Assembly (NCBI GenBank): GCA_017531225.1
Contig: JAFXLL010000008.1
Location: 62,001 to 126,000, forward strand
Reading direction: 5' to 3'
Origin: Bacteroidales bacterium
GTDB lineage: Bacteria; Bacteroidota; Bacteroidia; Bacteroidales; F082
DNA: 64,000 nt
Shown here: positions 40,740 through 60,330 of the stretch, in pieces
How the letters are laid out: each line of letters begins with the position of its first letter
How positions within the stretch are numbered: the stretch's first letter is position 1
The notes under the pieces: generated by a model
Database searches by the model: none
Seen by the model: only the letters and a program-made list of their open reading frames with translations
What the model was told of the DNA's origin: nothing
Translations under genes and position numbers: made by a program

Positions 40740-40747
40740 TATTTTTG
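40740..40747 (+). promoter_or_regulatory. -7 box for MMPL-fak-plsX operon
   Basis: TATTTTTG, 25 bp before ATG 40773. It is the only promoter I see before the nine-gene run ending at 52762. Confidence 0.65.
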
Positions 40748-40772
40748 CAGCTTTTAAAAGCGACAATAATAC

Positions 40773-43259
40773 ATGCATAAGATTTTTATTCCCATCTATA
40801 ATTTCTTCAAGGGCAGACAAGGTTTGATGTATATCATCATGACGGTTTCATTTTTGGTGTTTGCCTTTTTCGGTCTTCAACTTCATTTCGAGGAGGATAT
40901 CACTAAACTTCTGCCTACATCGAGTGTGGAAAGCCAGCTGGCTTTTGGCTCCATTGGCTTGAAGGACAAGGTCTTCATTCAAGTCACTTCGTCTGGCGAA
41001 CAGCTCTCTCCCGTAGAAATCGGAGAGATGACGGACAGCTTTATTGAGATGTTGTTTGAGAAGGACTCAGCCAATCATTACATCTCCAACATCCTCTACA
41101 AGATGGAGCCTGAGATGGCACTCAACGCCTTGGATTTCGTGCTGGAACATCTCCCTTCATTTGTGGACACTTCCGCTTATCAGGGTATTGCAAAAGCCTT
41201 GGAACCCGAGGCTGCTGCCGCTCAGATGCAGGCCAATTATGACTTGCTGATGAATGATGAGACCGGAGAGATGCTTCAGATGGTGGCATACGACCCGCTT
41301 AACCTGAAGGATGCGATCATCGGTGACATGCTGGAAAGCGCCGTTGGTGGTTATAACATGGTTGACGGCCATTTCTTCTGTGCCGACAGTACCGTTGCCA
41401 TTGCTTATTTGGCTCCGGCTTTCAAGACGCTTGATTCCAAGTCCGCTCGCGACTTCTCTCGCATGATGTCCAAGGCGAAGTATGAATTTGAAGAGGCACA
41501 TCCCGAGGTGAAGGTGCTGGTGCATGGCGACCCCATCGGCAGCGTGTCGAACGCCGGCCGTATCCGTACCGACTTGGTGGTGACGGTGGGCATCTCGCTC
41601 CTTCTGATTCTCATTCTGCTGGGACTTTGTTTCAAGAGCTTCTCCTTCTTGTGGAAAATGTTGTTGCCCATTGTTTATGGTACCGTCTTTTCGTTGGCTG
41701 TCATCTACTGGTACAGGGGCGAGATGTCGCTCATGTCGCTGGGCCTTGGTGCTATCGTTTTGGGTGTAGCCATCAGCTATTGCCTCCACGTGATGATCCA
41801 TCATTTCTTTGTGGGTGATCCCGAGAAACTGTTGCTCGACGAGTCAACTCCGGTGTTTTTGGGTTGCCTCACCACAGTGGGTGCTTTCTGCAGCTTGCTG
41901 CTCACCGATAGCGACTTGCTTCGTGACTTTGGACTCTTTGCCTCTGTGGCTCTCATAGGAAGCACACTGTTTGCCTTGATATTTTTACCTCACTTCCTGC
42001 CCAAGCGTCATGCTGATTCCAGTGGTGTGGTGTTCCGCCATATCACCCGCCTCAATTCATTGCCTTACGACCGTCGTAAATGGTTCCTTGGATTGATGGT
42101 GGCCATCATCATCGTGGGTTGCATCTTCTCACCGAATGTCACTTTCGACAGCGATTTGCGCAACTTGGACTTCAACTCGGAAGATGAGCTGGCAAGTGAG
42201 GCTTTGTTCAACGCCAAGAACAACGATGGTTTCGCGCACCAGTATTATGCCACAGTCTCTACTGATTTCGATGAGGCTATCCTTGCCAACCAGTCGTTGA
42301 TGGTCATCCTCGACTCATTGAAGCAGGCTGGCATCGTCCATTCTTATACCGACTTGATTCCGAAACTGTTTATCACCCAAGAGGAGCAGGAGCATCGCAT
42401 CGCTGCTTGGAACGCCTTCTGGACAGAGGAGCGCAAGCAAGAAACCATGGCTTTGGTGGAGACCAACGCCAAGCAACTCGGCCTCGATCCCAGTATGTTT
42501 GCCGATTTCCAATGGATCATCGATTCCGATTACGAACCCGCTTCTTTGCTGGAGAGTGGCATCATTCCTGAGAACCTGTTGGGCAACTTCATCGAATGTA
42601 ATGCCGATGGTCAATACATGGTGTTCACTGACGTGGCGCTGTTGTTTGAGGACAAGGATCCCGTTACAGTGGCGCTGATCAACAATCCCAGAACATTCAT
42701 CCTCGATCCGTTCTATTACTGCAAGGACATGGTTGAGGTTATTCACGACGACTTCGACATCGCTGTTTGGATTTCGTCGATTTTTGTGCTGGTTATTCTG
42801 CTGATTTCGTTCCGCAACATCCTCACCGCTCTGCTTTCGTTCATCCCGATGGTGGTCAGCTGGTTCATGGTTCAGGGCTATATGGCCTTGATCGGTTTGG
42901 AATTCAACCTGATCAACATCATCATTTCCACGTTTATCTTCGGCATTGGCGTGGACTACAGCATCTTCATCACCGAAGGCTTACTATCAGAGGCGCGAAC
43001 GGGCAACCGTGACGTGCTTACATGGCATAAGGTGGCCATCTTCTTCTCGGCCATCATCCTGGTTATTGTGATTTCTTCCTTGCTTTTCGCAGTTCACCCC
43101 GCTATCCGGTCCATCGGGCTCAGCACCCTCATCGGAATGGCATCAACCATAATGATATCCTACTCGCTGCAGCCGTTTGCGTTCAGGCAGTTGATGAAGA
43201 TTCCGGCTTACAAGCGTAGCGTACTTTCGAAAAAACCATGGAAAAAACAGCAGAATTAG
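40773..43259 (+). CDS. MMPL/RND-family lipid exporter
   Basis: An 828-residue RND superfamily membrane protein. One N-terminal segment (about 19-38) is followed by a periplasmic domain (40-265), a five-helix block (about 270-410) that includes LGAIVLGVAISYCLHVMIHHFF, a second segment near 445, another periplasmic domain, and a last block (about 665-810) with FIFGIGVDYSIFITEGLL, the classic MMPL motif. The family exports lipids or polyketides across the inner membrane. It is the first gene of the operon and overlaps the FakA-like gene by 22 bp, which supports export of an acyl product made by the neighbours. Confidence 0.9.
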   Translation: MHKIFIPIYNFFKGRQGLMYIIMTVSFLVFAFFGLQLHFEEDITKLLPTSSVESQLAFGSIGLKDKVFIQVTSSGEQLSPVEIGEMTDSFIEMLFEKDSANHYISNILYKMEPEMALNALDFVLEHLPSFVDTSAYQGIAKALEPEAAAAQMQANYDLLMNDETGEMLQMVAYDPLNLKDAIIGDMLESAVGGYNMVDGHFFCADSTVAIAYLAPAFKTLDSKSARDFSRMMSKAKYEFEEAHPEVKVLVHGDPIGSVSNAGRIRTDLVVTVGISLLLILILLGLCFKSFSFLWKMLLPIVYGTVFSLAVIYWYRGEMSLMSLGLGAIVLGVAISYCLHVMIHHFFVGDPEKLLLDESTPVFLGCLTTVGAFCSLLLTDSDLLRDFGLFASVALIGSTLFALIFLPHFLPKRHADSSGVVFRHITRLNSLPYDRRKWFLGLMVAIIIVGCIFSPNVTFDSDLRNLDFNSEDELASEALFNAKNNDGFAHQYYATVSTDFDEAILANQSLMVILDSLKQAGIVHSYTDLIPKLFITQEEQEHRIAAWNAFWTEERKQETMALVETNAKQLGLDPSMFADFQWIIDSDYEPASLLESGIIPENLLGNFIECNADGQYMVFTDVALLFEDKDPVTVALINNPRTFILDPFYYCKDMVEVIHDDFDIAVWISSIFVLVILLISFRNILTALLSFIPMVVSWFMVQGYMALIGLEFNLINIIISTFIFGIGVDYSIFITEGLLSEARTGNRDVLTWHKVAIFFSAIILVIVISSLLFAVHPAIRSIGLSTLIGMASTIMISYSLQPFAFRQLMKIPAYKRSVLSKKPWKKQQN

Positions 43260-44878
43260 ATAGCTTGACCTTTGCCGCCATGCTCCGTCAAGGGGCTGTG
43301 GCGCTGGGAAAAGAGAAGAACACCGTAAACGATTTAAACGTGTTTCCCATCCCTGATGGAGACACGGGCGACAATATGCACATGACTTTGAAGGCGGGTT
43401 GTGCTGCCCTCAAAGACAATTTAGGAACCCTTTCAGAGATCTCTGCAGCAGCCTCTTCAGGTATGCTGTTGGGCGCCAGAGGCAACTCGGGCGTTATCCT
43501 GTCACGTATTTTCGCAGGACTTGCCAAAGGCTTGCAAGGCGTGATTGTGGCTGATACCAAGGCTTTCGCAAACGCCATGGCGTCAGCCGTCGCCGAAGCC
43601 TATAAAGCCGTTCCCGTTCCTGTGGAAGGCACCATCATCACCGTGCTTCGCGAAGGCGCCGCCGGTGCCGATGCCTCAGCCGACCTCAACCATTATTTTG
43701 AGACGCTTCTGAGCGCCATGCAGATCTCACTCGACCATACGCCTGAACTGCTTCCGGTGTTGAAAGACGCTGGGGTGGTTGACAGCGGTGGCGCTGGTTT
43801 GCTCTGCATCTTCCAAGGCATGAACGACGCCCTCTGCGGCCGTATCAGCGAGGAGGAGTTGGCCCCTGCATCAACGCCAACCGCACCTGTGGTGGAGCTC
43901 GACAAGTTTGATGAAAACAGCACCCTTGAGTTTGGCTATTGCACCGAGTTCCTGCTCCGACTGATGCGCTCAAAAATCGACCTGGAGACCTTTGACGAGA
44001 AGGTGATCATCGATTACTTGAATCAGATTGGTGAGTCGGTGGTGGCATTCCGCGAAGGCAGCATCGTAAAGGTGCATGTGCATACCTTCAACCCTGGAGT
44101 CATCCTCAACGAGATGCAGAAATACGGCGAGTTCCTGACCATCAAGATCGAGAACATGTCGTTGCAGCACCACCAGTCGGTGAATCAAAACAACGCATCG
44201 TTCAAGAAGCCGCAACAGCCGTATGGCATCGTGGCCGTGGCTTCAGGTGAGGGATTGATCAACGCCTTCCGTGAACTTGGCACCGATGAGGTGATAGCCG
44301 GCGGTCAGACTATGAATCCTTCCACCCAGGACTTTTTGGATGCCTTCTCACGCATCAACGCACAGCATATTTTAGTGTTCCCGAACAACTCGAACATCAA
44401 GATGGCAGCTGACCAAGCGGCTGAGTTGTATGATAAGGCCGACATCCGTGTGATGCCTTCAACCACCATTGGCGAAGGCTACTACGGCGTGGGTTCGGTG
44501 GATCGTTCATTGAATGATATCGAGGAAGTCGTTGAAAGCGTGAACGAAATCATGCAATCCGTGAGCACTGGCATGGTATCCACGGCCATCCGTGATGCGG
44601 AAGGCGATGGCGTGACAGTGCATACCGGTAATTTTGTCGGCTACTATGGCAAGAAGATCCTTTCGGCTTCCGACAACCGTCTGGAGGCCGCCAAAGCCCT
44701 TTGCGAACGCCTCGATGCCGCTTCGCGCGACGTGCTGTTGGTGTTCTTTGGACAAGACGTTCCTGAAGAGGAAGCAGAAAAACTCGTTGCTGAACTGACA
44801 GCGACTTACAAGAATTTGGAAATTATGTTGAACAACGGCACACAGCCGGTTTATGATTATATCTTTGTATTATGTTAG
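43238..44878 (+). CDS. fakA: FakA-like fatty acid kinase (DhaL plus C-terminal domain)
   Basis: A 546-residue protein with an N-terminal DhaL nucleotide-binding domain: LNVFPIPDGDTGDNMHMT (residues about 33-50, the Asp residues bind Mg-ATP) and SSGMLLGARGNSGVILSRIFAGL. The middle region and the DegV-like C-terminal half (from about residue 330, GIVAVASGEGLINAFRELGTDEVIAGGQTMNPST) are those of FakA, which phosphorylates fatty acids bound to FakB. The next gene encodes exactly such a DegV/FakB protein. Fak systems are best known from Gram-positive bacteria. It overlaps both neighbours. Confidence 0.85.
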   Translation: MEKTAELDSLTFAAMLRQGAVALGKEKNTVNDLNVFPIPDGDTGDNMHMTLKAGCAALKDNLGTLSEISAAASSGMLLGARGNSGVILSRIFAGLAKGLQGVIVADTKAFANAMASAVAEAYKAVPVPVEGTIITVLREGAAGADASADLNHYFETLLSAMQISLDHTPELLPVLKDAGVVDSGGAGLLCIFQGMNDALCGRISEEELAPASTPTAPVVELDKFDENSTLEFGYCTEFLLRLMRSKIDLETFDEKVIIDYLNQIGESVVAFREGSIVKVHVHTFNPGVILNEMQKYGEFLTIKIENMSLQHHQSVNQNNASFKKPQQPYGIVAVASGEGLINAFRELGTDEVIAGGQTMNPSTQDFLDAFSRINAQHILVFPNNSNIKMAADQAAELYDKADIRVMPSTTIGEGYYGVGSVDRSLNDIEEVVESVNEIMQSVSTGMVSTAIRDAEGDGVTVHTGNFVGYYGKKILSASDNRLEAAKALCERLDAASRDVLLVFFGQDVPEEEAEKLVAELTATYKNLEIMLNNGTQPVYDYIFVLC

Positions 44879-45741
44879 TGTTTTTTAGCGATACAGATTG
44901 CGACATCACTCCCAAGGAGTGTGCCGAATATGGCATCAAGATGATCAGCATGCCATACACCGTTGGTGATCAAGTGATTTACCCATACGTCGACTTTGAA
45001 GAGTTCGATGACCACAAGTTTTACGATATGCTGCGTGCCGGCACCATGCCGACTACCAGCGCCATGAGCGAGGAGGCTTATTGCCAGTACTTCGAGCCCG
45101 AGTTTCAGGCAGGAAACGACATCCTCTACGTGCATTTCTCCTCAGGCACTTCCAATACCTTCACCATCATGGGTCAGGCAGTGGACAAGCTTCTTGCAAA
45201 ATATCCCGAAAGAAAGTTCTATCATATTGACACCTTGGGCATCACCGCTTTGTCCTACAACATCGTGCTTGAATGTGCCGATATGTATAAGGCTGGCAAG
45301 ACCGCTGAAGAGATTGTGGAATGGGCTAAGGTTGAAGTGCCTAAGTTCCCCATGTATTTCTTCGCTGACGACCTGAAGTTCTTCCGCCGCAGCGGCCGTG
45401 TGAGCGGTCTGGCTGCCACCATGGGAGGCCTCATCGGTATCCGTCCCATCATCTACCTCAACGACGAAGGTAAGATGGTCTCGATCGGCAAGGAAAAAGG
45501 TCGTGCCAAGGCTATCGCTCGTTTGGTGCAGTATGTGGAAGAACTCGGTGAGGATGTGAAAGCCCACCGTGTGTTGATCGGCCACACCGATTGTCCCGAG
45601 ATTGTTGAGGAAGCCAAGCGCTTGCTGAAGGAGAAGTTCGGTGACGATTTGAACATTATGGTCAATGCTGTCAATCCTACCATCGGCAGCCATTGCGGCC
45701 CCAATGCCATCGGCATCTGCTTCCACGCAAAACATAGATGA
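44872..45741 (+). CDS. fakB: DegV family fatty-acid-binding protein (FakB)
   Basis: A 289-residue DegV protein: FFSDTDCDITPKECAEYGIKMISMPY at the start, TMPTTSAMSEEAY (residues about 58-70) and SSGTSNTFTI for carboxylate binding, and GSHCGPNAIGICF at the C-terminus. DegV proteins hold a fatty acid in a closed pocket and present it to FakA for phosphorylation. The gene overlaps the FakA-like gene by 7 bp and the next by 4 bp (ATGA). The conserved His of the C-terminal motif is present. Which fatty acid it binds cannot be read from the sequence. Confidence 0.88.
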   Translation: MLVFFSDTDCDITPKECAEYGIKMISMPYTVGDQVIYPYVDFEEFDDHKFYDMLRAGTMPTTSAMSEEAYCQYFEPEFQAGNDILYVHFSSGTSNTFTIMGQAVDKLLAKYPERKFYHIDTLGITALSYNIVLECADMYKAGKTAEEIVEWAKVEVPKFPMYFFADDLKFFRRSGRVSGLAATMGGLIGIRPIIYLNDEGKMVSIGKEKGRAKAIARLVQYVEELGEDVKAHRVLIGHTDCPEIVEEAKRLLKEKFGDDLNIMVNAVNPTIGSHCGPNAIGICFHAKHR

Positions 45742-46865
45742 TTATGATTACAGTTGAACAGGTTAAAACCAAAAAACAACAAAAGGAGTTTCTCAACTTC
45801 CAGCTGAAACTCTATAAAGGCAATCCATACTACGCTCCGCCGTTGTACATGGATGAGAAGAAGATTTTTAGCAAGAACTTCGTGTATAACGACATTTGCG
45901 AAAGTGTCTACTTCAACGCCTATAAGGATGGCGTGATGGCTGGACGCATCTCCGGCATCATCCAGAAGTCAGCCAACCAGAAGTACAACCAGAAGCGGGT
46001 GCGCCTATCGAAGTTCGATGTCATTGAGGACGAAGAAGTGGCCAGGGCTTTGTTCAAGACCTTGGAAGACTGGACGCTCCAGCATGGCATGGAAGAGGTA
46101 GTGGGTCCCTTGGGCTACTCCGACTTGGAGCGCGAAGGCTTGTTGATTGGCGGTTTTGACCAGCCTGCCACCTTTGAGGAAAACTACAACTATCCATATT
46201 ATCAGACCTTCTTGGAAAACTATGGTTACCAGAAGGAAGTGGATTGGTCAGGTAGCAACATCCGTGTTCCCAAGGATTATGACGGCGAGATGCATCGTTT
46301 GGCCGAGTTTGTGTTGAAGCGTTACAATCTGCATATCGGAAAGTCCAAGAATACTAAGGATTTCCTCAAAAAATATGCTGACGGCATCTTTGAACTGCTG
46401 GATAAGTCGTATGACATGCTGTATGGCACCGTGCCTTTCACTGAAGGCATGAAGAAGATGATGATCGAGAACTTCAAGTTGATCATCCGTGTGGAAAATG
46501 CAGCTGTGATCCTTGATGAGAACGACAAGATGGTGTGTTTTGGCCTGGCATTTCCTGGTATTGCCGATGCCGTTCGTAAATCAGACGGCCATTTGACCCC
46601 AGGAGCGCTTATCAGGGTTTTGAAGACCTTGAGGAAGCCAAGGGTTCTTGACCTTTGCTTGGTGGGTGTTGATCCTGTTTGGTTTAATCGTGGCGTTAGT
46701 GTGGTGGTATGCATGGGCTTGATCGACATGCTTAAGAGAAAGGATATCGAGTATGCCGATACCAACCTTAACCTGGAGGACAATTATCCCATCTTGAATC
46801 TCTGGAAACGCTTTGACTCACAAGTGGTCAAGCATTACCGTTGCTTTGTCAAGAAATTAGTGTGA
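45738..46865 (+). CDS. GNAT-like acyltransferase, unknown substrate
   Basis: A 375-residue protein related to the two-domain GNAT-like proteins common in Bacteroidota and Clostridia: KKQQKEFLNFQLKLYKGNPYYAPPLYMDEKKIF at the start, EEVVGPLGYSDLEREGLLIGGFDQPATFEENYNYPYY in the middle, and a C-terminal stretch with VGVDPVWFNRGVSVVVCMGLIDML. The family is usually annotated only as hypothetical or N-acetyltransferase. Its position between the fatty acid kinase pair and PlsX/ACP suggests that it uses acyl-ACP or acyl-phosphate as donor. That role is inferred. It starts inside the DegV stop and ends 1 bp before plsX. Confidence 0.7.
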   Translation: MIMITVEQVKTKKQQKEFLNFQLKLYKGNPYYAPPLYMDEKKIFSKNFVYNDICESVYFNAYKDGVMAGRISGIIQKSANQKYNQKRVRLSKFDVIEDEEVARALFKTLEDWTLQHGMEEVVGPLGYSDLEREGLLIGGFDQPATFEENYNYPYYQTFLENYGYQKEVDWSGSNIRVPKDYDGEMHRLAEFVLKRYNLHIGKSKNTKDFLKKYADGIFELLDKSYDMLYGTVPFTEGMKKMMIENFKLIIRVENAAVILDENDKMVCFGLAFPGIADAVRKSDGHLTPGALIRVLKTLRKPRVLDLCLVGVDPVWFNRGVSVVVCMGLIDMLKRKDIEYADTNLNLEDNYPILNLWKRFDSQVVKHYRCFVKKLV

Positions 46866-46866
46866 T

Positions 46867-47886
46867 ATGATTAAGATATTGATCGACTGCTTCGGGGGCG
46901 ACCATAGCCCGCAAGCCAATATTGACGGTGCCTTGGCGGCATTGGCCAAGACCCCGGACTTGTATCTGATTTTTACTGGCGACGAGAAAACCATTAAGGA
47001 CTATCTCGCTGGGAAGACATACGATACTAAGCGAGTGGAGATCGTCCACGCTCCCGAGGTTATCGGTTGCGATGAGCGTCCCATCGACGTGATCCGCCTG
47101 AAGAAGGAAAGCTCGATGATCAAGGCGGTGCGTATGTTGCGTGACCGTGACGACATCAACGCCATGGTGAGCACAGGCTCCACAGGTGCCTTGGTGGCTG
47201 CGGCTCTGACCCGCATCGGACGTGTGAAAGGCGTGATCCGCCCAGCGTTTTGCCCCATCCTGCCTACCATGAACGGCGGCATCGTGGGCGTCTGCGACAG
47301 CGGCGCCAATGTGGAGGTGACTCCGGAGCATCTGCGCCAGTTTGCCATCATGTCGAGCCTCTATATGCAAAAAGTCTATGGCATTGAAAGACCGAGAGTT
47401 GCACTGCTAAATGTAGGAAAAGAAGCAGAAAAAGGTGACGAGATACGACAAAAGGCATACATTTTGCTACAAGAGACCCCTGAAATCAATTTTGTGGGCA
47501 ATATGGAGAGCCGCGATTTGCTGTCAGGCAGCTACGACGTGGTGGTGTGCGACGGCTTTTCAGGCAACGTGCTGGTAAAGACCACAGAGGGAACCGCTCT
47601 TGAACTGTTGAAGAAGCTGAAGAAAGACATCTATTCAAGGACTTTGTACAAGATTGGTGCTTTCCTGATGAAGAAGATGTTCGCCGATGAAAAGGAGTTC
47701 ATGAACTACCAGAACTACGGCGGCAGCGTGTTGCTCGGGACATCGAAAACGGTGGTCAAGGGACACGGCTCAAGCAAAGCGGTGGCAGTGGAGAAGTGCA
47801 TCGAACAAGCCTACAAGATGGAGGTCAGCTCATTGTCATCGAAGATGGAAGAAATAATTATGAAATACGAACATTACGAGTATTAG
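46867..47886 (+). CDS. plsX: phosphate acyltransferase PlsX
   Basis: A 339-residue PlsX, which interconverts acyl-ACP and acyl-phosphate. Marks: IDCFGGDHSPQANIDGAL at the start (usual form DAMGGD), AMVSTGSTGALVAAALTRIGRVKGVIRPAF, ANVEVTPEHLRQFAIM, and VVVCDGFSGNVLVKTTEG. It is not in the usual rpmF-plsX-fabH context, so it is probably a second copy dedicated to this operon. With FakA/FakB upstream and ACP downstream it would convert acyl-phosphate to acyl-ACP. The DCFGG start is a departure from the housekeeping enzyme. Confidence 0.92.
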   Translation: MIKILIDCFGGDHSPQANIDGALAALAKTPDLYLIFTGDEKTIKDYLAGKTYDTKRVEIVHAPEVIGCDERPIDVIRLKKESSMIKAVRMLRDRDDINAMVSTGSTGALVAAALTRIGRVKGVIRPAFCPILPTMNGGIVGVCDSGANVEVTPEHLRQFAIMSSLYMQKVYGIERPRVALLNVGKEAEKGDEIRQKAYILLQETPEINFVGNMESRDLLSGSYDVVVCDGFSGNVLVKTTEGTALELLKKLKKDIYSRTLYKIGAFLMKKMFADEKEFMNYQNYGGSVLLGTSKTVVKGHGSSKAVAVEKCIEQAYKMEVSSLSSKMEEIIMKYEHYEY

Positions 47887-47919
47887 ATAAAAGATAAGAG
47901 ATAAAAGATAAAAGTTCAA
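47885..47919. repeat. heptad tandem repeat between plsX and ACP
   Basis: Four units of 7 bp (AGATAAA, AGATAAG, AGATAAA, AGATAAA) followed by AGTTCAA, filling the only gap of more than a few bases inside the operon. Confidence 0.8.
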
Positions 47920-47921
47920 TT

Positions 47922-48149
47922 ATGTTTGATGAAGTAAAAGAAATCTTAGCGCGTCAACTAAGAGTATCACCGGAAAAGGTGACCCTTGATGCGCAAATCA
48001 AAAAAGACCTCGGCGCCGACTCAGTGGATATCCTTCAACTGTTAATGCGCCTTGAAGACGATTACGGCATTGTGATTCCCGATCAGGAATTGGCTAAATT
48101 TGAAACCGTTGGCGACGTGGTCGCTTTCTTAGATAGCTTGAAAAAATGA
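47922..48149 (+). CDS. acyl carrier protein
   Basis: A 75-residue ACP of the helical-bundle type. The phosphopantetheine site is Ser34 in LGADSVDILQL (usual DSLD is DSVD). Family pattern: VSPEKVTLDAQIKKDLG, then LLMRLEDDYGIVIPDQELAKFETVGDVVAFL. It is a dedicated carrier rather than obviously the housekeeping one, since it stands in the lipid operon between plsX and a LolA-like gene and not with fab genes. It overlaps the LolA-like gene by 4 bp. Confidence 0.93.
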   Translation: MFDEVKEILARQLRVSPEKVTLDAQIKKDLGADSVDILQLLMRLEDDYGIVIPDQELAKFETVGDVVAFLDSLKK

Positions 48150-48670
48150 GACGTTTTGGATTGATGATCGTGGCGATGCTGCTCTCAGTGGTGGCTTTCG
48201 CACAAAAGCAATATGATGCAGATTTCACCCAAACCCGTTTGGTGAAGGTGTCGGGAAAGACCACTACCATGACCGGTCATTTGAATTTTGACGGCGTTGA
48301 TCACCTGACGATGGACTATACCGATCCTTTGGGTGAGTTTTTTTACATCTCAGGCAATACGGTGTCATTGAACCTCAATGGTAAGCAGACCATATTGGAT
48401 GCTTCAAAAGTGAAGATGGTTGGCTTGCAGCGCTCTACTTTGCTGAACTGCATCTCGGGCAACTGGGAACAGGCCGCTATCGACAATAACGCAGAGACTA
48501 CAGTTACTGAAAAAGATGGCCTGCGCCATGTCGTCATCACCGTCAAAGGCAAGGTGCCAAGAGGTGGTTACTCATCGGTGGAGCTGACTTATCGTTTGAA
48601 GGACAACGCACTCGTCAAGATGGTGTTGGAAGAAGCCATTGGCATTATTAACACCTACGAGATGCGCTGA
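48146..48670 (+). CDS. LolA-like periplasmic lipid carrier
   Basis: A 174-residue exported protein with signal peptide MRRFGLMIVAMLLSVVAFAQ and the LolA pattern: YDADFTQTRLVKVSGKTTTMTGHLNFDGVDHLTMDYTDP, followed by strands such as GEFFYISGNTVSLNLNGK. LolA-like proteins next to an ACP and MMPL exporter are a known feature of aryl polyene-type clusters, where they are thought to move a lipid product across the periplasm. That supports export of a lipid here. It overlaps the ACP gene by 4 bp and sbcD by 1 bp. Confidence 0.85.
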   Translation: MRRFGLMIVAMLLSVVAFAQKQYDADFTQTRLVKVSGKTTTMTGHLNFDGVDHLTMDYTDPLGEFFYISGNTVSLNLNGKQTILDASKVKMVGLQRSTLLNCISGNWEQAAIDNNAETTVTEKDGLRHVVITVKGKVPRGGYSSVELTYRLKDNALVKMVLEEAIGIINTYEMR

Positions 48671-52764: not shown

Positions 52765-55700
52765 TTAAGCTATCACTTCGTGTTCCTGTCCATCGTCCAC
52801 GAGGTTGATGACAGTAGGAGCGATGTGTGCACTTGGGGTGTTGTAATGGATCACGTAGGTGCTACTGCCGAAGCGGTAACGGATGGTGAAACCTTCCCAG
52901 TCGGTGGGCACATGCGGATCGATGGTGAGGGTGTTGCCTTCCTTGTGGAAGCCGAGAATGTTCTCGATACCGGTCTTGTAAGCCCATGACGCTGATCCCG
53001 TGTACCATGTCCAGCCGCCGCGGCCAGGATGCTGACGGTTGCTGTAGATGTCGGCTGCGATGCAGTACGGTTCCACTTTGTATTTCAGCACATCGGCAAG
53101 GGTTTGGGTGCGGTGTATCGGGTTGATCAGCGAGTAGAGGAAGTAAGCCATGTCGATGCGGCCTTCCTTGAGCTGTGCCATGATGTACCACATGGCGCCG
53201 TGGGTGTACTGACCGCCGTTCTCGCGGACGCCTTCAGGATATTGCATGATGTATCCTGGATCGTCGGTGGAGTGCTTGAATGGAGGCGTGAGCAGTTGGA
53301 TGATCTCATGGGCACGGTTGACCAAGCGGCTGTCGGTCTCACGGAAGATGGACTGTTTCTGCTCAGGTGTAGCGACATCGGTGAGGATGCTCCATGCCTG
53401 GGAGATGAGGTCGATCTGACACTCGGTGTTGTTGCGTGAACCCATGGGGTTGCCGTTGTCGAAGAAGGCGCGGAGGAACCAGTAACCGTCCCAAGCATTG
53501 TCTTGCAAAGCCTTGACGAGGCGGTTGCGGAACTGGCTCAGCTCTTCGCAGTAGCTGAGATCGGCATCAGGTATCTTCTGGGTGAGTTCTTCCATCTTGG
53601 GCAACAGGTCGCAGAGGAAGAAGGCCACCCACACGCTCTCACCCTTGTTGCCGATGCCGACGCGGCTCATGCCGTCGTTCCAGTCACCGCAGCCCATCAG
53701 CGGCAGGCCGTGGGCACCGATACGTCCCATGGAACGGTTGACGGAACGGCGTAGATGTTCGAACAGCGTGGCTTTATTGTCGGATGCCGAGTAATTCAGG
53801 CAGCGTTCGGCTTCGTTAGGAGCGAGTTGATCGGCTTGGCAGAACGGCACCTCTTCCATAAGGATGTTGAGGTCGCCTGTGACCTTGATGTATTGGTAAG
53901 TGACATAAACGAGCCACAGGTAGTCGTCGCTGAAGGTAGTGCGGGCGCCGAGTTTAAGGCTCTCATGCCACCAGTGCAGCACATCGCCTTCGGGGAACTG
54001 ATGTGCGGCGTGGTCGAGGATCTGACGACGGGCGTAGTCGGGATCGCTGTAAAGGCAACTCATCACGTCCTGAAGCTGGTCGCGGAAGCCAGTGGCACCG
54101 CCCACTTGGTAGAAGCCAGCGCGTGCATAGAGGCGTGAGGCATACACTTGGTACAGGTACCAGCGGTTCAACATATAGTTGAGCGACTTGTCGGGCGTTT
54201 CCACTTGGATGTGACCAAGTTTCTCGTCCCAGAAATGGGTCACGGCATCGAATTCCTTGTAAATATCAGCAGTGCTATAGGTAGCCGGTGCCATATTGCG
54301 ATCCTCGATGACGGCGATGACGAAATCAACCTCACGCACCCCCTTGGCCGGGATATGCACCTTCATGCCAAGACGTTTGCGGTTCGGGAACTTGAGTGAA
54401 TAGTCGTATTGCTTCTCAGGATCATCCTCGCACAAGGCGGTGAGTTGTACCCATGTGTCGCGATACAGATCGTGATAGACGTTGCGGACAAAGATGCTGT
54501 TTGAGTTCTCGTCCCATTCAGAGTAGAGGTAACGTGCCGTCTTTTCCTCGGTGGTGCCCATCACGAGTTTATACACCATGTCGAGTTGGAGCTCGGTATC
54601 TTCGTTGGTCTTGTTCTCAATCTTGATTTGATAGTACTTCTCAAGGCGTTCGGTAGCCACAAACACACGTACCTTGACGTTGAGTTCGTCGTATTGGGCA
54701 TCGAAAGAGGAGAAGCCTTGACCGTGGCGTGCCGTGGCCGGGACGAATTGTTTCTTGTTGATGAGCAGCATCTCCGAAGCGTTGTCGCGGACAATGTCGT
54801 TGCTCCAGCCCGTGAGCTTGAACTGCTGGGCGTTGTAGGCAAAAGTGAATCCTGCCATGGTGGAGCTGACGATGCAGCCGAATCTTGGGTTGGCGATGAC
54901 GTTGACCCAAGGCATCGGCGTGTTGGTGTTGGTGACCACGTAGTCGCGACCGACGTTGTCGAAACCGCCGTATTGGTTGTAGAAGTCGAGGGTGCTCCAA
55001 ACGTGGAACTGGGCGCTGGGCTTCATCACCGGGTATTCCACCTTGTCCTGATACTGCTGGTTGGCAGCCTCGAGGTTTTGCAACTGCTGTTCGATGCGTT
55101 CATGGTCGTTGAAGTCGATGCGTGCCACGGTGCGGAGCAGGATGCGCTCTTCCTCACTGATTTCATTGCCGTTGAGGATGAACACCTGTCCAGTTTGTTC
55201 GTGCGTAGCCCACAGATGCTCGGTGTTGGCCATGTTACGGATGAAGTGGGTGAGGCCGTCGTGGTTGTTGCCAGGCACGTCGTTGATGAAGACGAGGTCT
55301 AGCACCAGACCGTGTACCTTATAATATTCGAAGGCGCGAAGCATCTCCTTGGCGAAGCCTGACTTATCGATGTCGTCGATTTCCATCAGCACGATGGCGT
55401 GGTCGCCGCTGATGCCGAAGCGCCACAGGCCGCTCTGAGAGAGTCTGTTCTTGGCCAGGACTTCTTGGCGTTTGTTACCGAAGGTGGCTGTCTGGAGGAT
55501 GTATTTCGAGATGCTGTTGTAGAGGCGCATCTGTGAGCCTTTCAATAGCGACATGTCAGTGCGCATGTTGTTGAACACCGAGGCTTTCTTGAAAGCATCT
55601 TCAACGTCAACAGCATTCTGATACTGATCCACAAGATGGAAGAGCTGCTCCTTGGCTCTTGCGAAGCCAGTGATGATGAAAGCGGAGACGGCTTTACCAG

Positions 55701-58700
55701 CTGGGACGTGAATGCGTCGGCGCATGCTCATGATGGGGTCGAGGGTGGTGCCGACGGTGTTGCTCAAAGTACGGTGGTTGTCGATGACATGGGCGTGTCG
55801 GATGCTGCCGCCGCGGCCTAAGAACTTGATTCTTGAGGTCTCGTAACTCACCAAGTTGTTCTGATTGTCGGTTTCTTCTTTATCTACAAAGAGCTTATGG
55901 ATGACGTAATCATAGCCTTCATTTTCAATTTGTGAAGGCTTGCTGAAGATCAAGGACTCGTGATCGCTGTCGTACTCACTGAATATCTTCATGCTGTTGA
56001 AGACACGGTGTCCGGCATCGACGTCACGTGGAGCCATCACCACTTCGCCGTAGCTAGTGATTTCCAAATCGACATCAAGCTGGCTGTTGTTAGTGAAAGT
56101 GATCCTGCGGATCTCAGCGAAATAGTCCTTTAACACCGTGATCTCCGTCTTGGTCTCAATGTCGTCATCGACACGCATGAAGCTGATCTTGTCGGAAGCG
56201 AAGCTTACCCTATATTGCGATGGCATCACGTCGAGAGGAGAGTATGTGTTACACCAGAGCTTGTCGTCGCGGAGGTTACGGATATACAAATAGGTGCCGT
56301 AATGGTCGGCCGTGATTTTGCGGTAACGGTTGACGAGAATCTTGCGGTAGCGTGAGAAACCTGAGCCTCGGTCGTTGAGCAGCACGGTATAATGACCATT
56401 GCTGACCACGCCGATTTCGGGAACGGTGGCAATGCCGTCATAGTCGCGGGCATCGCTCTCAGTCTGTACCTTGGAATATTGGTAACGCTTGTATTGCGTG
56501 ACTTTCAAGTCGATGTAAGGCTGAACCTGAGCCTTCTCCTTGAGCAGCGTCTCCATGGATTTGAAGACGGGTTCTTGCATGAAGTAGCGCTGCAGGCAAT
56601 GGTCGCCGAGGTAGTTGGCGAGTGAGGCCAGAATCATACCTTGATGGTGGGCGTAATGGGCGACTACCGGCACGTGGTCGTCCTCGTCGTAGCTCTCATA
56701 GAAGCCCATGTCGTCATACATGTTGAGGCTCTTAAAGCGTTGTAGGTTGTCGTAAACGGCACGGTCGTTGACGCTGATCGATAACAACGAGCTGTAAGGT
56801 GAAATCACGATGCGGTCAGGGGTGGTGTTCTGGAACTTCAAGTATGGCACACCGAAGGCGTGATACTTATAGTTCTTGGCATCGTCCAGCTCGTTGTAGG
56901 CGGTCTCAGAGATACCCCAAGGTAAGGCATCATTGATGTTTTTGATGAATGCGCGCTGTGCCCTAACGGCGAAGCTATAGGTCTCGTCCATGAGGGTGTG
57001 CTTGTAGGTGGGCAGGAAGATGAGCGGCATGAAGTACTCGAACAGGGTGCCATACCACGATGCCACGCCTTTGTAGCCTTTGTATTGGACCAAGGTTTTA
57101 TCGAGGCAGAACCAATGCTTGTATGGCGCATCGCCTTGTGCGATGGTGAGGAAGCTGGTGAGACGAGCCTCGGAGGCGAAGTTGTTGTAATGGTAGGGCA
57201 GGAGGGCATGGGCACCATAGTCGTAGCCGATGCTGAACACATCGAGTTCAGGATTGTAGAGCTTGGAGAAATCCGTCTCCTCAATCAGTTTCTGAATCCG
57301 ATCATGCAAATCGGTGTTTTGGTTCGCTTGGGCGAAGGCTTTGGCCACATAGAGACATGCTACGAAGTTGCCACTGTCGCAGGTAGAGATGAAGAAGTTC
57401 GGCAGCGTCTTCAGCGTGTTGATGTGATACCAGTTGAAGAGGTGACCATTCCATTTCTCCAGCTTCTCGACGGTGTCGATGATATGGCCGAGTCGCTCAA
57501 TGGCTTCTTCTTCGGTAATGAAACCGAGTTCTGAAGCGGAAATGATGGAGGTGATGGAGTAGCCGATGTTGGTTGGCGAGGTCTTGTAGTCGGCTTTCTT
57601 CTGACGGTTGAGTTGATAGTTGTCAGGGATGAGGTAATGGGTATCCTCTGTGATGAGGGTATCGAAGAAATGCCATGTGTCCTTGGCGAGTTGGCGGATC
57701 TCCTCAGTCTCTTTGGTGTTGAGTTTTTTCTTGTCTTGGAATTTCTTGCCCAGCCAGAACATCAGGAATGGCGCACCGCACCAAGAAATGACGCAGAAGA
57801 GCATTGCCAGCAGGGCAAGCGTGTTCACAGGGTTCGAGACATAGAGGAAGATCAAGATAGCTGAAGCCACATAGTTGAACCAGAATTTGCCGATGTAGTC
57901 GCCGAGGGTGCCTTTGGTGCTCTTTGCAGCTTCGTCACTGGTGATCCAGTTGAGCAGGTTTTTGTGGCTGAACCACATGCGATAACAAGCACGAACCAAG
58001 GCATCGGTATACATCCAAGCCTCTTTGGGAAGCAATGCAAATTGAACCAATGAGCGGTTGATGATCACATTGAAGCCACGCATCAATGTGGCGTAGTAGT
58101 GGTAGCGTTTGCCGAAACGAGGCAAAGTGGTGATCTGTCCTAAGATAAAGAATACGATAGGGCTGGCCACGGCAATCAGTGCCACTAAGAGGAACCATGC
58201 GGGGTGGAACCATGTGAGGCTACTGAAGCCGACGTATAGGATCACCATTAAGGCCAAACTCAACACGGAACGGCGCAGATTGTCGAAGATCTTCCAGCGA
58301 CCGATGGTGTTCACCTGATTCTTTACCTTAACGCCTTGCTCGTTGCGTACTTTGTTGAACAGCCAGCTGATGATCTGCCAGTCGCCACGGGTCCAGCGGT
58401 GGTGACGCTTGGCGTCGTCGATATAATTGGACGGGTTGTCGTCAAATAATTCCAAGTCGTTGATCAAGCCGCAGCGGATGTGGCAGCCTTCAATCAAGTC
58501 GTGGCTGAGGATGAGGTTCTCGGGGAAAGTACCTTTTAGCACTTTTTGGAACACCTTCAGGTCGTAGATGCCTTTACCGCAGAAGCTTCCTTCGTTGAAG
58601 ATGTCTTGATACAGCTCAAACGAAGCGGTGGTATAGACGTCGAGGCCGCCGAGACCGGCAAACAGCTGGGCGTAGCGGCTCTTGTTGGTGACTTCCACAT

Positions 58701-60330
58701 CCACGTTGACGCGAGGCTGCATGATGCCGTAGCCAGCATTGACACGCTTGCCGTCGGGCGACAGCTGCGCACGGTTCAAAGGATGTGCCATGGCGCCGAT
58801 GAGCTTCTGGGCGGAATAGAGCACCAACTCAGTGTCGGTATCCAAGGTGATGATGAACTGGATGGGAGGCACAGCGCCTTCGAGCCAGCGGGTGATGGTC
58901 TCGCAACGGAAACGTTTCTGTCGCTCACCCTCCGTAGTGTTGCCTAAAACCAAGTCGTTGAAATGCAGAATGGCGCCACGCTTGCGCTCGTAGCCAAGCC
59001 AGCAGTTTTCGCCGTCGCTCCAAGCACGTTTTCTATAAACGAAATTGAAGATGGGAGCACCGTATTTCTTATTCAGTTCTTCGACTTTAGCCAGACCCGC
59101 CTGTGCCACTTCATCGTCCCAAGGCATGTCTTCATTAGGACCTGCCGCAGCATCACCGATGAGGGTGTAGAAGATGTTTTGTGGACGGCTCTCCAAGCGC
59201 TGACCTTCGCTGGCACGGTTGATATTGGAGAGGTAATAGATCTCCAACTGTTCGAGCAACTCGATGGTTCTGGCTTTGTTCTTTAAAATGGTTGGCATGA
59301 TGACCATGGTGGCGTATTCCTTAGGAATCAAGCCGTCCTTGAACTTGATCTTGAAGGTGTTGACGGGCTTGTGAATCTTATAAAGCAGCTGGTTGAACAG
59401 GTCGATGACGATTTGGCTCATTGGCACCCACATGATGATGGTCAGCAGTACCGTGAGAGCGCTAAAGCCTTGCTTGGAGGTGGCCCACCATGCGAATCCT
59501 AAGGCCAGTCCAAGGGTGAGCAGCACCACGATCCACACGTACCAGTGGGCACGGGCGTTCCATTTCTTGGGAGGGAATAGTTGCCAGCCCACATGCTCGC
59601 CTTTTTCGTCGGCCTTGGCTACCAACGCTTTCACGAAGTCGTGTTCCTTGACTCTATGCTTCTTACACTGTCGAGTGATCATGGCACGGTAGTCGTCCTT
59701 GGTGCGGTCGTACATCTCGTCGTACATACCGGCCTTCTCAGCTTTCAGCATCTGCTCGGAATAGCTCACGGTGTCGATCAGTTCCGATACAGGAAGTTTG
59801 GTCATCTTCTTCAACGAATTGAAGAGATTCATCATCATTAGGTTCTGCTGGGCTGCCACGTTCAGCTTATCCATGTTGGCCATGGAACTGTCAGTGGGGG
59901 AGTAGTGGTAGGCGTTGCTGGTCTTCAGCTGTGTGCAGAGCTCGGCCAACTCCTTGAGCAGGATACACTTCATTAATGGAAGCAGGGCGCATACTTCGGG
60001 GTAGGACAGGTAATCCTTGTTATTCTCCTGTTCCTGAAGCAGGTAGTTGAAAAACATACCCTTGTCGATCTGGTAATGGCAACGTGTCAGAAACTCGCGG
60101 AGCATCGACTCCAGATGTTTCATCCGCTCGCCTTCGAGCTTCTTGAAACTCCTGCTTTGCAAGTCGATCTTCAGCACTTTCTCCTGCTCGCTGATCATGT
60201 AGTAGTTGTCCAAGACCCATTCGTTGGTGCTGCCCACAAGGCGTTGCGACTTGGTCTCTTCTACAAGTAACAGGTAGTAGTCCGTGATGATTTTTATGCT
60301 GTCCTTAAAGATGCGGTAGGTGCTTTTCAT
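52765..60330 (-). CDS. cyclic beta-1,2-glucan synthase-like protein (NdvB/ChvB type)
   Basis: A 2521-residue membrane protein with the architecture of cyclic beta-1,2-glucan synthase. Order: helical N-terminal part; membrane segments (about 266-320); GT84 glycosyltransferase domain with LDTDTELVL near residue 497 and RHHRWTRGDWQI near residue 650; more membrane segments (about 690-880); a glycoamylase-like cyclisation domain with GISETAYNEL and MGFYESYDEDDHVP near residue 1209; two beta-sandwich domains; and a C-terminal GH94 phosphorylase-like domain with GGATGFRDQLQDVM and CGDWNDGMSR near residue 2213. Proteobacterial enzymes are about 2830 residues. It lies last in a minus-strand operon, 19 bp after the radical SAM gene. 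Confidence 0.9.
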   Translation of the reverse strand: MKSTYRIFKDSIKIITDYYLLLVEETKSQRLVGSTNEWVLDNYYMISEQEKVLKIDLQSRSFKKLEGERMKHLESMLREFLTRCHYQIDKGMFFNYLLQEQENNKDYLSYPEVCALLPLMKCILLKELAELCTQLKTSNAYHYSPTDSSMANMDKLNVAAQQNLMMMNLFNSLKKMTKLPVSELIDTVSYSEQMLKAEKAGMYDEMYDRTKDDYRAMITRQCKKHRVKEHDFVKALVAKADEKGEHVGWQLFPPKKWNARAHWYVWIVVLLTLGLALGFAWWATSKQGFSALTVLLTIIMWVPMSQIVIDLFNQLLYKIHKPVNTFKIKFKDGLIPKEYATMVIMPTILKNKARTIELLEQLEIYYLSNINRASEGQRLESRPQNIFYTLIGDAAAGPNEDMPWDDEVAQAGLAKVEELNKKYGAPIFNFVYRKRAWSDGENCWLGYERKRGAILHFNDLVLGNTTEGERQKRFRCETITRWLEGAVPPIQFIITLDTDTELVLYSAQKLIGAMAHPLNRAQLSPDGKRVNAGYGIMQPRVNVDVEVTNKSRYAQLFAGLGGLDVYTTASFELYQDIFNEGSFCGKGIYDLKVFQKVLKGTFPENLILSHDLIEGCHIRCGLINDLELFDDNPSNYIDDAKRHHRWTRGDWQIISWLFNKVRNEQGVKVKNQVNTIGRWKIFDNLRRSVLSLALMVILYVGFSSLTWFHPAWFLLVALIAVASPIVFFILGQITTLPRFGKRYHYYATLMRGFNVIINRSLVQFALLPKEAWMYTDALVRACYRMWFSHKNLLNWITSDEAAKSTKGTLGDYIGKFWFNYVASAILIFLYVSNPVNTLALLAMLFCVISWCGAPFLMFWLGKKFQDKKKLNTKETEEIRQLAKDTWHFFDTLITEDTHYLIPDNYQLNRQKKADYKTSPTNIGYSITSIISASELGFITEEEAIERLGHIIDTVEKLEKWNGHLFNWYHINTLKTLPNFFISTCDSGNFVACLYVAKAFAQANQNTDLHDRIQKLIEETDFSKLYNPELDVFSIGYDYGAHALLPYHYNNFASEARLTSFLTIAQGDAPYKHWFCLDKTLVQYKGYKGVASWYGTLFEYFMPLIFLPTYKHTLMDETYSFAVRAQRAFIKNINDALPWGISETAYNELDDAKNYKYHAFGVPYLKFQNTTPDRIVISPYSSLLSISVNDRAVYDNLQRFKSLNMYDDMGFYESYDEDDHVPVVAHYAHHQGMILASLANYLGDHCLQRYFMQEPVFKSMETLLKEKAQVQPYIDLKVTQYKRYQYSKVQTESDARDYDGIATVPEIGVVSNGHYTVLLNDRGSGFSRYRKILVNRYRKITADHYGTYLYIRNLRDDKLWCNTYSPLDVMPSQYRVSFASDKISFMRVDDDIETKTEITVLKDYFAEIRRITFTNNSQLDVDLEITSYGEVVMAPRDVDAGHRVFNSMKIFSEYDSDHESLIFSKPSQIENEGYDYVIHKLFVDKEETDNQNNLVSYETSRIKFLGRGGSIRHAHVIDNHRTLSNTVGTTLDPIMSMRRRIHVPAGKAVSAFIITGFARAKEQLFHLVDQYQNAVDVEDAFKKASVFNNMRTDMSLLKGSQMRLYNSISKYILQTATFGNKRQEVLAKNRLSQSGLWRFGISGDHAIVLMEIDDIDKSGFAKEMLRAFEYYKVHGLVLDLVFINDVPGNNHDGLTHFIRNMANTEHLWATHEQTGQVFILNGNEISEEERILLRTVARIDFNDHERIEQQLQNLEAANQQYQDKVEYPVMKPSAQFHVWSTLDFYNQYGGFDNVGRDYVVTNTNTPMPWVNVIANPRFGCIVSSTMAGFTFAYNAQQFKLTGWSNDIVRDNASEMLLINKKQFVPATARHGQGFSSFDAQYDELNVKVRVFVATERLEKYYQIKIENKTNEDTELQLDMVYKLVMGTTEEKTARYLYSEWDENSNSIFVRNVYHDLYRDTWVQLTALCEDDPEKQYDYSLKFPNRKRLGMKVHIPAKGVREVDFVIAVIEDRNMAPATYSTADIYKEFDAVTHFWDEKLGHIQVETPDKSLNYMLNRWYLYQVYASRLYARAGFYQVGGATGFRDQLQDVMSCLYSDPDYARRQILDHAAHQFPEGDVLHWWHESLKLGARTTFSDDYLWLVYVTYQYIKVTGDLNILMEEVPFCQADQLAPNEAERCLNYSASDNKATLFEHLRRSVNRSMGRIGAHGLPLMGCGDWNDGMSRVGIGNKGESVWVAFFLCDLLPKMEELTQKIPDADLSYCEELSQFRNRLVKALQDNAWDGYWFLRAFFDNGNPMGSRNNTECQIDLISQAWSILTDVATPEQKQSIFRETDSRLVNRAHEIIQLLTPPFKHSTDDPGYIMQYPEGVRENGGQYTHGAMWYIMAQLKEGRIDMAYFLYSLINPIHRTQTLADVLKYKVEPYCIAADIYSNRQHPGRGGWTWYTGSASWAYKTGIENILGFHKEGNTLTIDPHVPTDWEGFTIRYRFGSSTYVIHYNTPSAHIAPTVINLVDDGQEHEVIA

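Follow-up and report, generated by a model that had tools for sequence, protein, structure and literature searches.

A 64,000-nucleotide stretch of a Bacteroidales genome (GTDB F082; GenBank assembly GCA_017531225.1, contig JAFXLL010000008.1, positions 62,001 to 126,000 of the forward strand; hereafter the window) contains a conserved operon that joins the fatty acid kinase-PlsX (FakAB-PlsX) pathway to its own acyl carrier protein (ACP) and an N-acyltransferase-like gene, in genomes lacking PlsY. With a probability that we put at roughly 0.55, the operon would be a self-contained unit that makes an N-acyl lipid from free fatty acids. What the sequence shows directly is which genes are present, their conserved order, their assigned domains and folds, and the absence of PlsY.

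Gene content of the operon

Seven genes on the same strand span positions 40773-48670 of the window, and neighbouring genes either overlap or are separated by no more than 35 bp (antisense open reading frames, ORFs, were left aside). A first-pass annotation made from the sequence alone had listed these seven genes, and their identities were confirmed as follows.

40773..43259, +, MMPL/RND-type exporter, 828 aa; HpnN-like, with a score far under the HpnN cut-off; hydrophobic segments; variable among relatives
43238..44878, +, FakA-like fatty acid kinase, 546 aa; PDGDTG motif; Pfam and YloV above cut-off; 7w7h_A match
44872..45741, +, DegV/FakB fatty-acid-binding subunit, 289 aa; PF02645 and TIGR00762 above cut-off; the only DegV of the genome
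45738..46865, +, GNAT1, tandem-GNAT N-acyltransferase-like protein, 375 aa; no Pfam or NCBIfam match; fold search; own clade
46867..47886, +, PlsX, 339 aa; TIGR00182; the only PlsX of the genome; separate clade
47922..48149, +, putative dedicated ACP, 75 aa; Ser34 within DSVD
48146..48670, +, LolA-fold periplasmic carrier, 174 aa; hydrophobic N-terminus by hydropathy; fold search

The Dak2, middle and C-terminal domains of FakA are all present, and residues 9-543 match 7w7h_A over the full length (E 5e-113). PlsX scores 338.3 against a cut-off of 243.4 on the equivalog model TIGR00182, and its K189 and N234 align with K184 and N229 of the B. subtilis enzyme, which we take to be the catalytic residues. 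PDB sequence searches gave nothing useful for GNAT1 and returned no LolA for the LolA-like protein; fold searches settled both, as a tandem-GNAT N-acyltransferase fold and as LolA. The source genome contains five PP-binding sites, those of the operon ACP, of C11 (adjoining a ketosynthase), of C4 (in a group with FabH, FabF and FabA/Z-like genes) and two within a single C10 frame of 2425 codons, and three small ACPs, the operon ACP among them. A second group resembling a fatty acid synthase, composed of FabH-like, ketosynthase (FabF), FabA/Z-like, ACP and SDR genes, is found in G000:C4 and L062:3547-7237.

Conservation of the five-gene core

A scan of species genomes with a PlsX alignment confirmed 260 stretches, the best 80 of which were kept as named Bacteroidales loci. 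The core order FakA-DegV-GNAT-PlsX-ACP is preserved in 64 of the 69 loci with enough contig, and with all gaps shorter than 500 bp in 59 of the 69, which bears out the conserved unit presumed in the first-pass annotation. For these counts greedy ORF calling was set aside, since antisense ORFs make it undercount DegV, GNAT and ACP, and flags of distant genes with small negative distances were traced to over-long PlsX starts. In the looser loci (L167, L177, L178, L181 and L183) the insertion always falls between DegV and GNAT. The order fails in five loci, through PlsX on the opposite strand (L158), the other half on a separate contig (L162, with L253), no GNAT (L193), no FakA or DegV found (L210) and no ACP found (L219). 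The operon of G022 is split between DegV and GNAT onto two contigs, both halves being retained (L253, L038); named loci and genomes overlap here, L162 being G022, as L164 is G031 and L159 is G034.

The five core genes also diverge in a correlated manner (r 0.80-0.92 across the 70 of the 80 named loci with all five genes), partly through common descent. Among 37 genomes of the genus, 12 contain both PlsX and a stand-alone DegV, one contains PlsX alone, two DegV alone and 22 neither (p 6e-7). Both genomes with DegV alone are fragmentary: the G019 contig breaks off within GNAT, its FakA appearing as two ORFs, and the G029 contig starts at FakA and runs 2.7 kb past DegV with no GNAT match. The block is carried by some Bacteroidales of gut and rumen. 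The animals named in the record titles of relatives are ruminants, besides one horse-faeces record and one Candidatus Cryptobacteroides.

One of the genomes, G009, encodes a 594-aa fusion of FakA (N-terminal and middle domains) with DegV (L147:565-2349), a candidate one-chain fatty acid kinase identified by a domain scan of L147 only. Long DegV frames, judged by frame length, occur also in G001, G027, G041, G053 and G056, and all six genomes have PlsY.

PlsX distribution and absence of PlsY

The source genome has a single PlsX, so that an ordinary housekeeping pair of PlsX and ACP for phospholipid, standing beside fatty acid kinase genes by chance, had to be considered. The distribution of PlsX contradicts it: the 61 genomes searched include 37 from the genus, of which 13 have PlsX and 24 lack it, three of these 24 being scored 100% complete. 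None of the 14 genomes whose PlsX is of the operon type (13 of the genus plus G039, the source genome included) has PlsY (PF02660), and 12 of 12 with other-type PlsX do (Fisher p 1e-7; genome sets for this and the other Fisher tests compiled by hand), and therefore acyl-phosphate would be left without a known glycerolipid outlet in the former. Moreover, in a tree of 13 operon-type and 12 other PlsX sequences the operon type forms its own clade (support 100/100), apart from the PlsX of other families. The latter, from 12 families, are 30-39% identical to the window PlsX and have no operon partners within the stretches read; in three contexts (L050, L054, L061) they follow YceD-like and L32-like ORFs, and in two of the three they precede a FabH-like ORF (all named by eye). 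Because 24 of 37 genus genomes do without PlsX, PlsY is lacking and the clade is separate, PlsX of the operon is judged, on these genomic grounds, not to be a housekeeping copy, and the same is concluded for the operon ACP. With the order also kept in 64 of 69 loci, the housekeeping explanation was dropped and can be given almost no credence. The first-pass annotation, which had likewise taken the pair as non-housekeeping, had added that the lack of any other plsX and acp in the genome would make these the housekeeping copies; for plsX this is literally the situation, but the premise fails, given the genus genomes without plsX and the other ACPs present.

Within the genus set (G000-G036), 34 of the 37 genomes are without PlsY, and 21 of the 37 lack PlsX as well.

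Proposed route and comparison with known systems

The operon holds what appears to be a complete parts list from fatty acid through acyl-phosphate to acyl-ACP, and this portion of the first-pass interpretation is strongly supported. FakB (DegV) would bind a free fatty acid, FakA would phosphorylate it to acyl-phosphate and the operon PlsX would transfer the acyl group to the operon ACP. The tandem-GNAT protein, which as the first-pass annotation had suggested is positioned to use acyl-ACP, may then move the acyl group onto an amine, as its paralogs linked to serine palmitoyltransferase (Spt) may do in ceramide synthesis. In the lineage of the window, MMPL would extract the lipid from the inner membrane and the LolA-like carrier would cross the periplasm with it, and the product is thus probably an exported lipid rather than an ordinary phospholipid. 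From these assignments we infer the direction of flux, the fatty acid source (host or diet, according to the first-pass annotation), the use of this acyl-ACP by GNAT1, the acceptor, the lipid nature of the product and its export.

FakAB-PlsX converts exogenous fatty acids to acyl-ACP and is described as the Gram-positive route of such fatty acids into phospholipid, other uses being called theoretical (PMC10146087). In E. faecalis the gene that follows plsX encodes AcpB, which accepts acyl groups from acyl-phosphate better (PMC6509188). The Bacteroidales operon resembles these systems in having FakA, FakB, PlsX and an extra ACP gene directly after plsX, and would share with them the passage from fatty acid to acyl-phosphate and acyl-ACP (PMC10146087, PMC6509188). 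In contrast to them, the set is gathered in one operon, in a Gram-negative order and in a genome without PlsY, and an N-acyltransferase gene lies between fakB and plsX. Sphingolipid clusters of Caulobacter and Rhodobacteria contain Spt, ACP, an acyl-ACP synthetase, a reductase and an N-acyltransferase (PMC9386255, PMC11324152, PMC11087976). The operon is similar to these clusters in its private ACP, its own acyl-activating enzyme and its N-acyltransferase, whose paralogs stand beside Spt in relatives, but it would activate the acyl group by a kinase and PlsX instead of an AMP-forming ligase and lacks both Spt and reductase. As the first-pass annotation had noted, MMPL and LolA resemble the transport half of aryl polyene clusters, which combine ACP, a LolA-like chaperone and an RND-family exporter (E. 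coli apeL/apeM; PMC8253772). Unlike those clusters, the operon has no ketosynthase, dehydratase, ketoreductase or thioesterase (eight proteins scanned), and therefore the chain would be taken ready-made. A literature search found no description of the operon, most subscription journals lying outside its coverage. The linkage of these genes in genomes without PlsY makes a non-glycerolipid use directly testable and points to what may become of free fatty acids in the rumen.

The GNAT family and its link to sphingolipid genes

GNAT1 forms its own clade on a long branch in a tree for which 124 GNAT sequences were reduced to 46 at 82% identity (a further sequence set comprised the window and 35 of 66 GNAT ORFs). 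An alignment of 12 GNAT1 and 3 GNAT2 rows found the family in 255 of 295 genomes; because the alignment mixed both types, this count reflects the whole GNAT family, and since the best foreign row (G232) is a GNAT2, the clade of the operon GNAT looks confined to few families.

GNAT paralogs lie beside Spt and a KdsR-like reductase in L096 and in six of 17 Spt loci read (L235, L236, L237, L248, L249 and L250), the remaining 11 having no GNAT paralog within the stretch read. In some relatives these paralogs adjoin an ACP and an acyl-ligase as well as Spt and the reductase; this context hints that the GNAT1 family is ceramide-synthase-like, and it names candidate genes for such a family in Bacteroidales. 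This sphingolipid connection is new in the present analysis, the first-pass annotation having missed it, and is unproven. A compact candidate sphingolipid cluster (acyl-ligase, ACP, GNAT, KdsR-like reductase and Spt) is located at:

L235:5381-10217
L236:5384-10258
L248:5401-10295
L096:8010-13024

Within the genus, 11 of the 13 genomes with the operon encode Spt, compared with 7 of the remaining 24 (p 0.002); among the named operon genomes it occurs in 38 of the 50 covered (out of 80 loci), plus one fragment. True Spt was defined as above 640 bits in the genus and above 470 bits in the named operon genomes, the next rows lying below 325 bits; we take these to be mostly Kbl/BioF-like. The ligase-ACP2-GNAT2 group adjoins the operon itself in 5 of the 80 loci. 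An obligatory role in sphingolipid synthesis, attractive from the context of the paralogs, is weakened by G034. This genome is scored 100% complete and contains the operon in full, but no Spt, and the 1.2 kb that separate its nqrF from its sdhC hold none of the five cluster genes found at that site in G335. The source genome showed no Spt either, only two weaker matches of a kind seen in nearly every genome searched. Its nqrF (named by eye), a gene that in the close relatives G335 and G036 is a neighbour of the sphingolipid genes, was likewise not found, and the same query is positive in 42 of the 61 genomes and in 16 of the 19 genus genomes scored at least 90% complete; therefore a gap there may lie behind the lack of Spt.

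Alternative explanations and contrary evidence

A narrower form of the proposed route is that GNAT1 is a salvage-type ceramide synthase acylating sphingoid bases with scavenged fatty acids, while the de novo route (acyl-ligase, ACP2, GNAT2, KdsR and Spt) works in the same cell. The paralogs beside Spt and KdsR, the enrichment of Spt in operon genomes and the ligase-ACP2-GNAT2 group next to the operon speak for it, but G034 with its empty nqrF-sdhC site, the source genome without detected Spt, the 11 Spt loci without a GNAT paralog and the isolated branch of GNAT1 speak against it, gene sharing among related species may reflect descent, and Bacteroidetes Spts are said to use acyl-CoA instead of acyl-ACP (PMC11324152); we hold it as a tentative possibility. 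A further and unlikely idea, for rumen and gut Bacteroidales, is that a Fak of Gram-positive type, PlsX and the private ACP serve as a salvage line for sphingolipid-like lipids rather than glycerolipids: a ceramide-synthase-like tandem GNAT would couple scavenged fatty acids to sphingoid bases, which Spt supplies or which species without Spt acquire from neighbouring organisms, and MMPL and LolA would export the product. Since PlsX is reversible (PMC10146087), flux may also run the opposite way, PlsX drawing acyl groups from ACP to acyl-phosphate, Fak balancing the pools of free fatty acid and acyl-phosphate, and GNAT taking acyl-phosphate or another donor. The lack of a PlsY draining acyl-phosphate would suit such a regulatory role, but an acyl-phosphate-making kinase and a private ACP beside PlsX fit the forward route better, as does the E. 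faecalis precedent (PMC6509188), which leaves the reverse direction quite unlikely. A protein or lipoprotein as the substrate of GNAT, acylated on lysine or at the N-terminal amine and carried by MMPL and LolA, seems very unlikely, given that the informative neighbours of its paralogs are sphingolipid genes.

Other observations weigh against the N-acyl lipid route itself. FakA and DegV fall under the NCBI equivalog cut-offs of NF038248 (431.1 of 975) and of NF038249 for FakB1 (88.1 of 350), and therefore we regard them as Fak-like by domains and claim no equivalence to the S. aureus proteins. In L049 (G039) a PlsC-like protein takes the place of GNAT and L193 has neither, so that GNAT is not indispensable. 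Some genomes are incomplete (58-89%), which weakens the absences. The exporter and carrier, taken as fixed parts in the first-pass annotation, proved variable: of the 62 loci with room, 41 have MMPL no more than 7 kb upstream, and in two it is further away; LolA, missing in many relatives, shares the strand in 33 of 78 loci and is on the opposite strand in 17 (LolA sequence set: the window and 24 of 48 LolA ORFs). Whole-genome searches of 20 genomes, most of them picked because MMPL was missing at the locus, found MMPL in eight and none at E 1e-30 in the other 12. Export by MMPL and LolA would therefore apply only to part of the relatives, and the first-pass interpretation stands for activation and the dedicated ACP but not as a general export route.

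On the same contig, MMPL occurs about 7.3, 8.6 and 9.5 kb before FakA in G016, G021 and G031, respectively. The PlsC-like acyltransferase of G039 (L049:744-2120) has 458 aa, with a possible zinc-ribbon, and is encoded between DegV and PlsX.

Promoter element and flanking genes

A candidate promoter element precedes the operon:

40740..40748, +, candidate Bacteroidales -7 promoter element TATTTTTGC, 24 bp upstream of the first ATG (MMPL)

The Bacteroidales -7 consensus, which we take to be TANNTTTGC, occurs 21 times in the whole window against 8.4 expected, as for a promoter element of this phylum. Of 42 relatives, 24 carry TANNTTTG in the 250 bp preceding MMPL, and in 16 of these 24 it sits 29-35 bp ahead of the called MMPL start. 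Where no MMPL is adjacent, it precedes FakA in 11 of 24 loci. None of the 42 and none of the 24 control windows inside genes contained it, coding DNA being a loose control.

The flanking genes run in the same direction as the operon: lon, an OppA-like gene, a sugar transferase (assigned by Pfam), sbcD and sbcC, the other four being identified by eye. Flanking genes recur in no more than a minority of loci, and just two of the 80 named loci, L155 and L156, have all five. Further downstream in the window, the minus strand encodes a 2521-aa protein (52765-60330) that by eye resembles what we take to be cyclic beta-glucan synthases.
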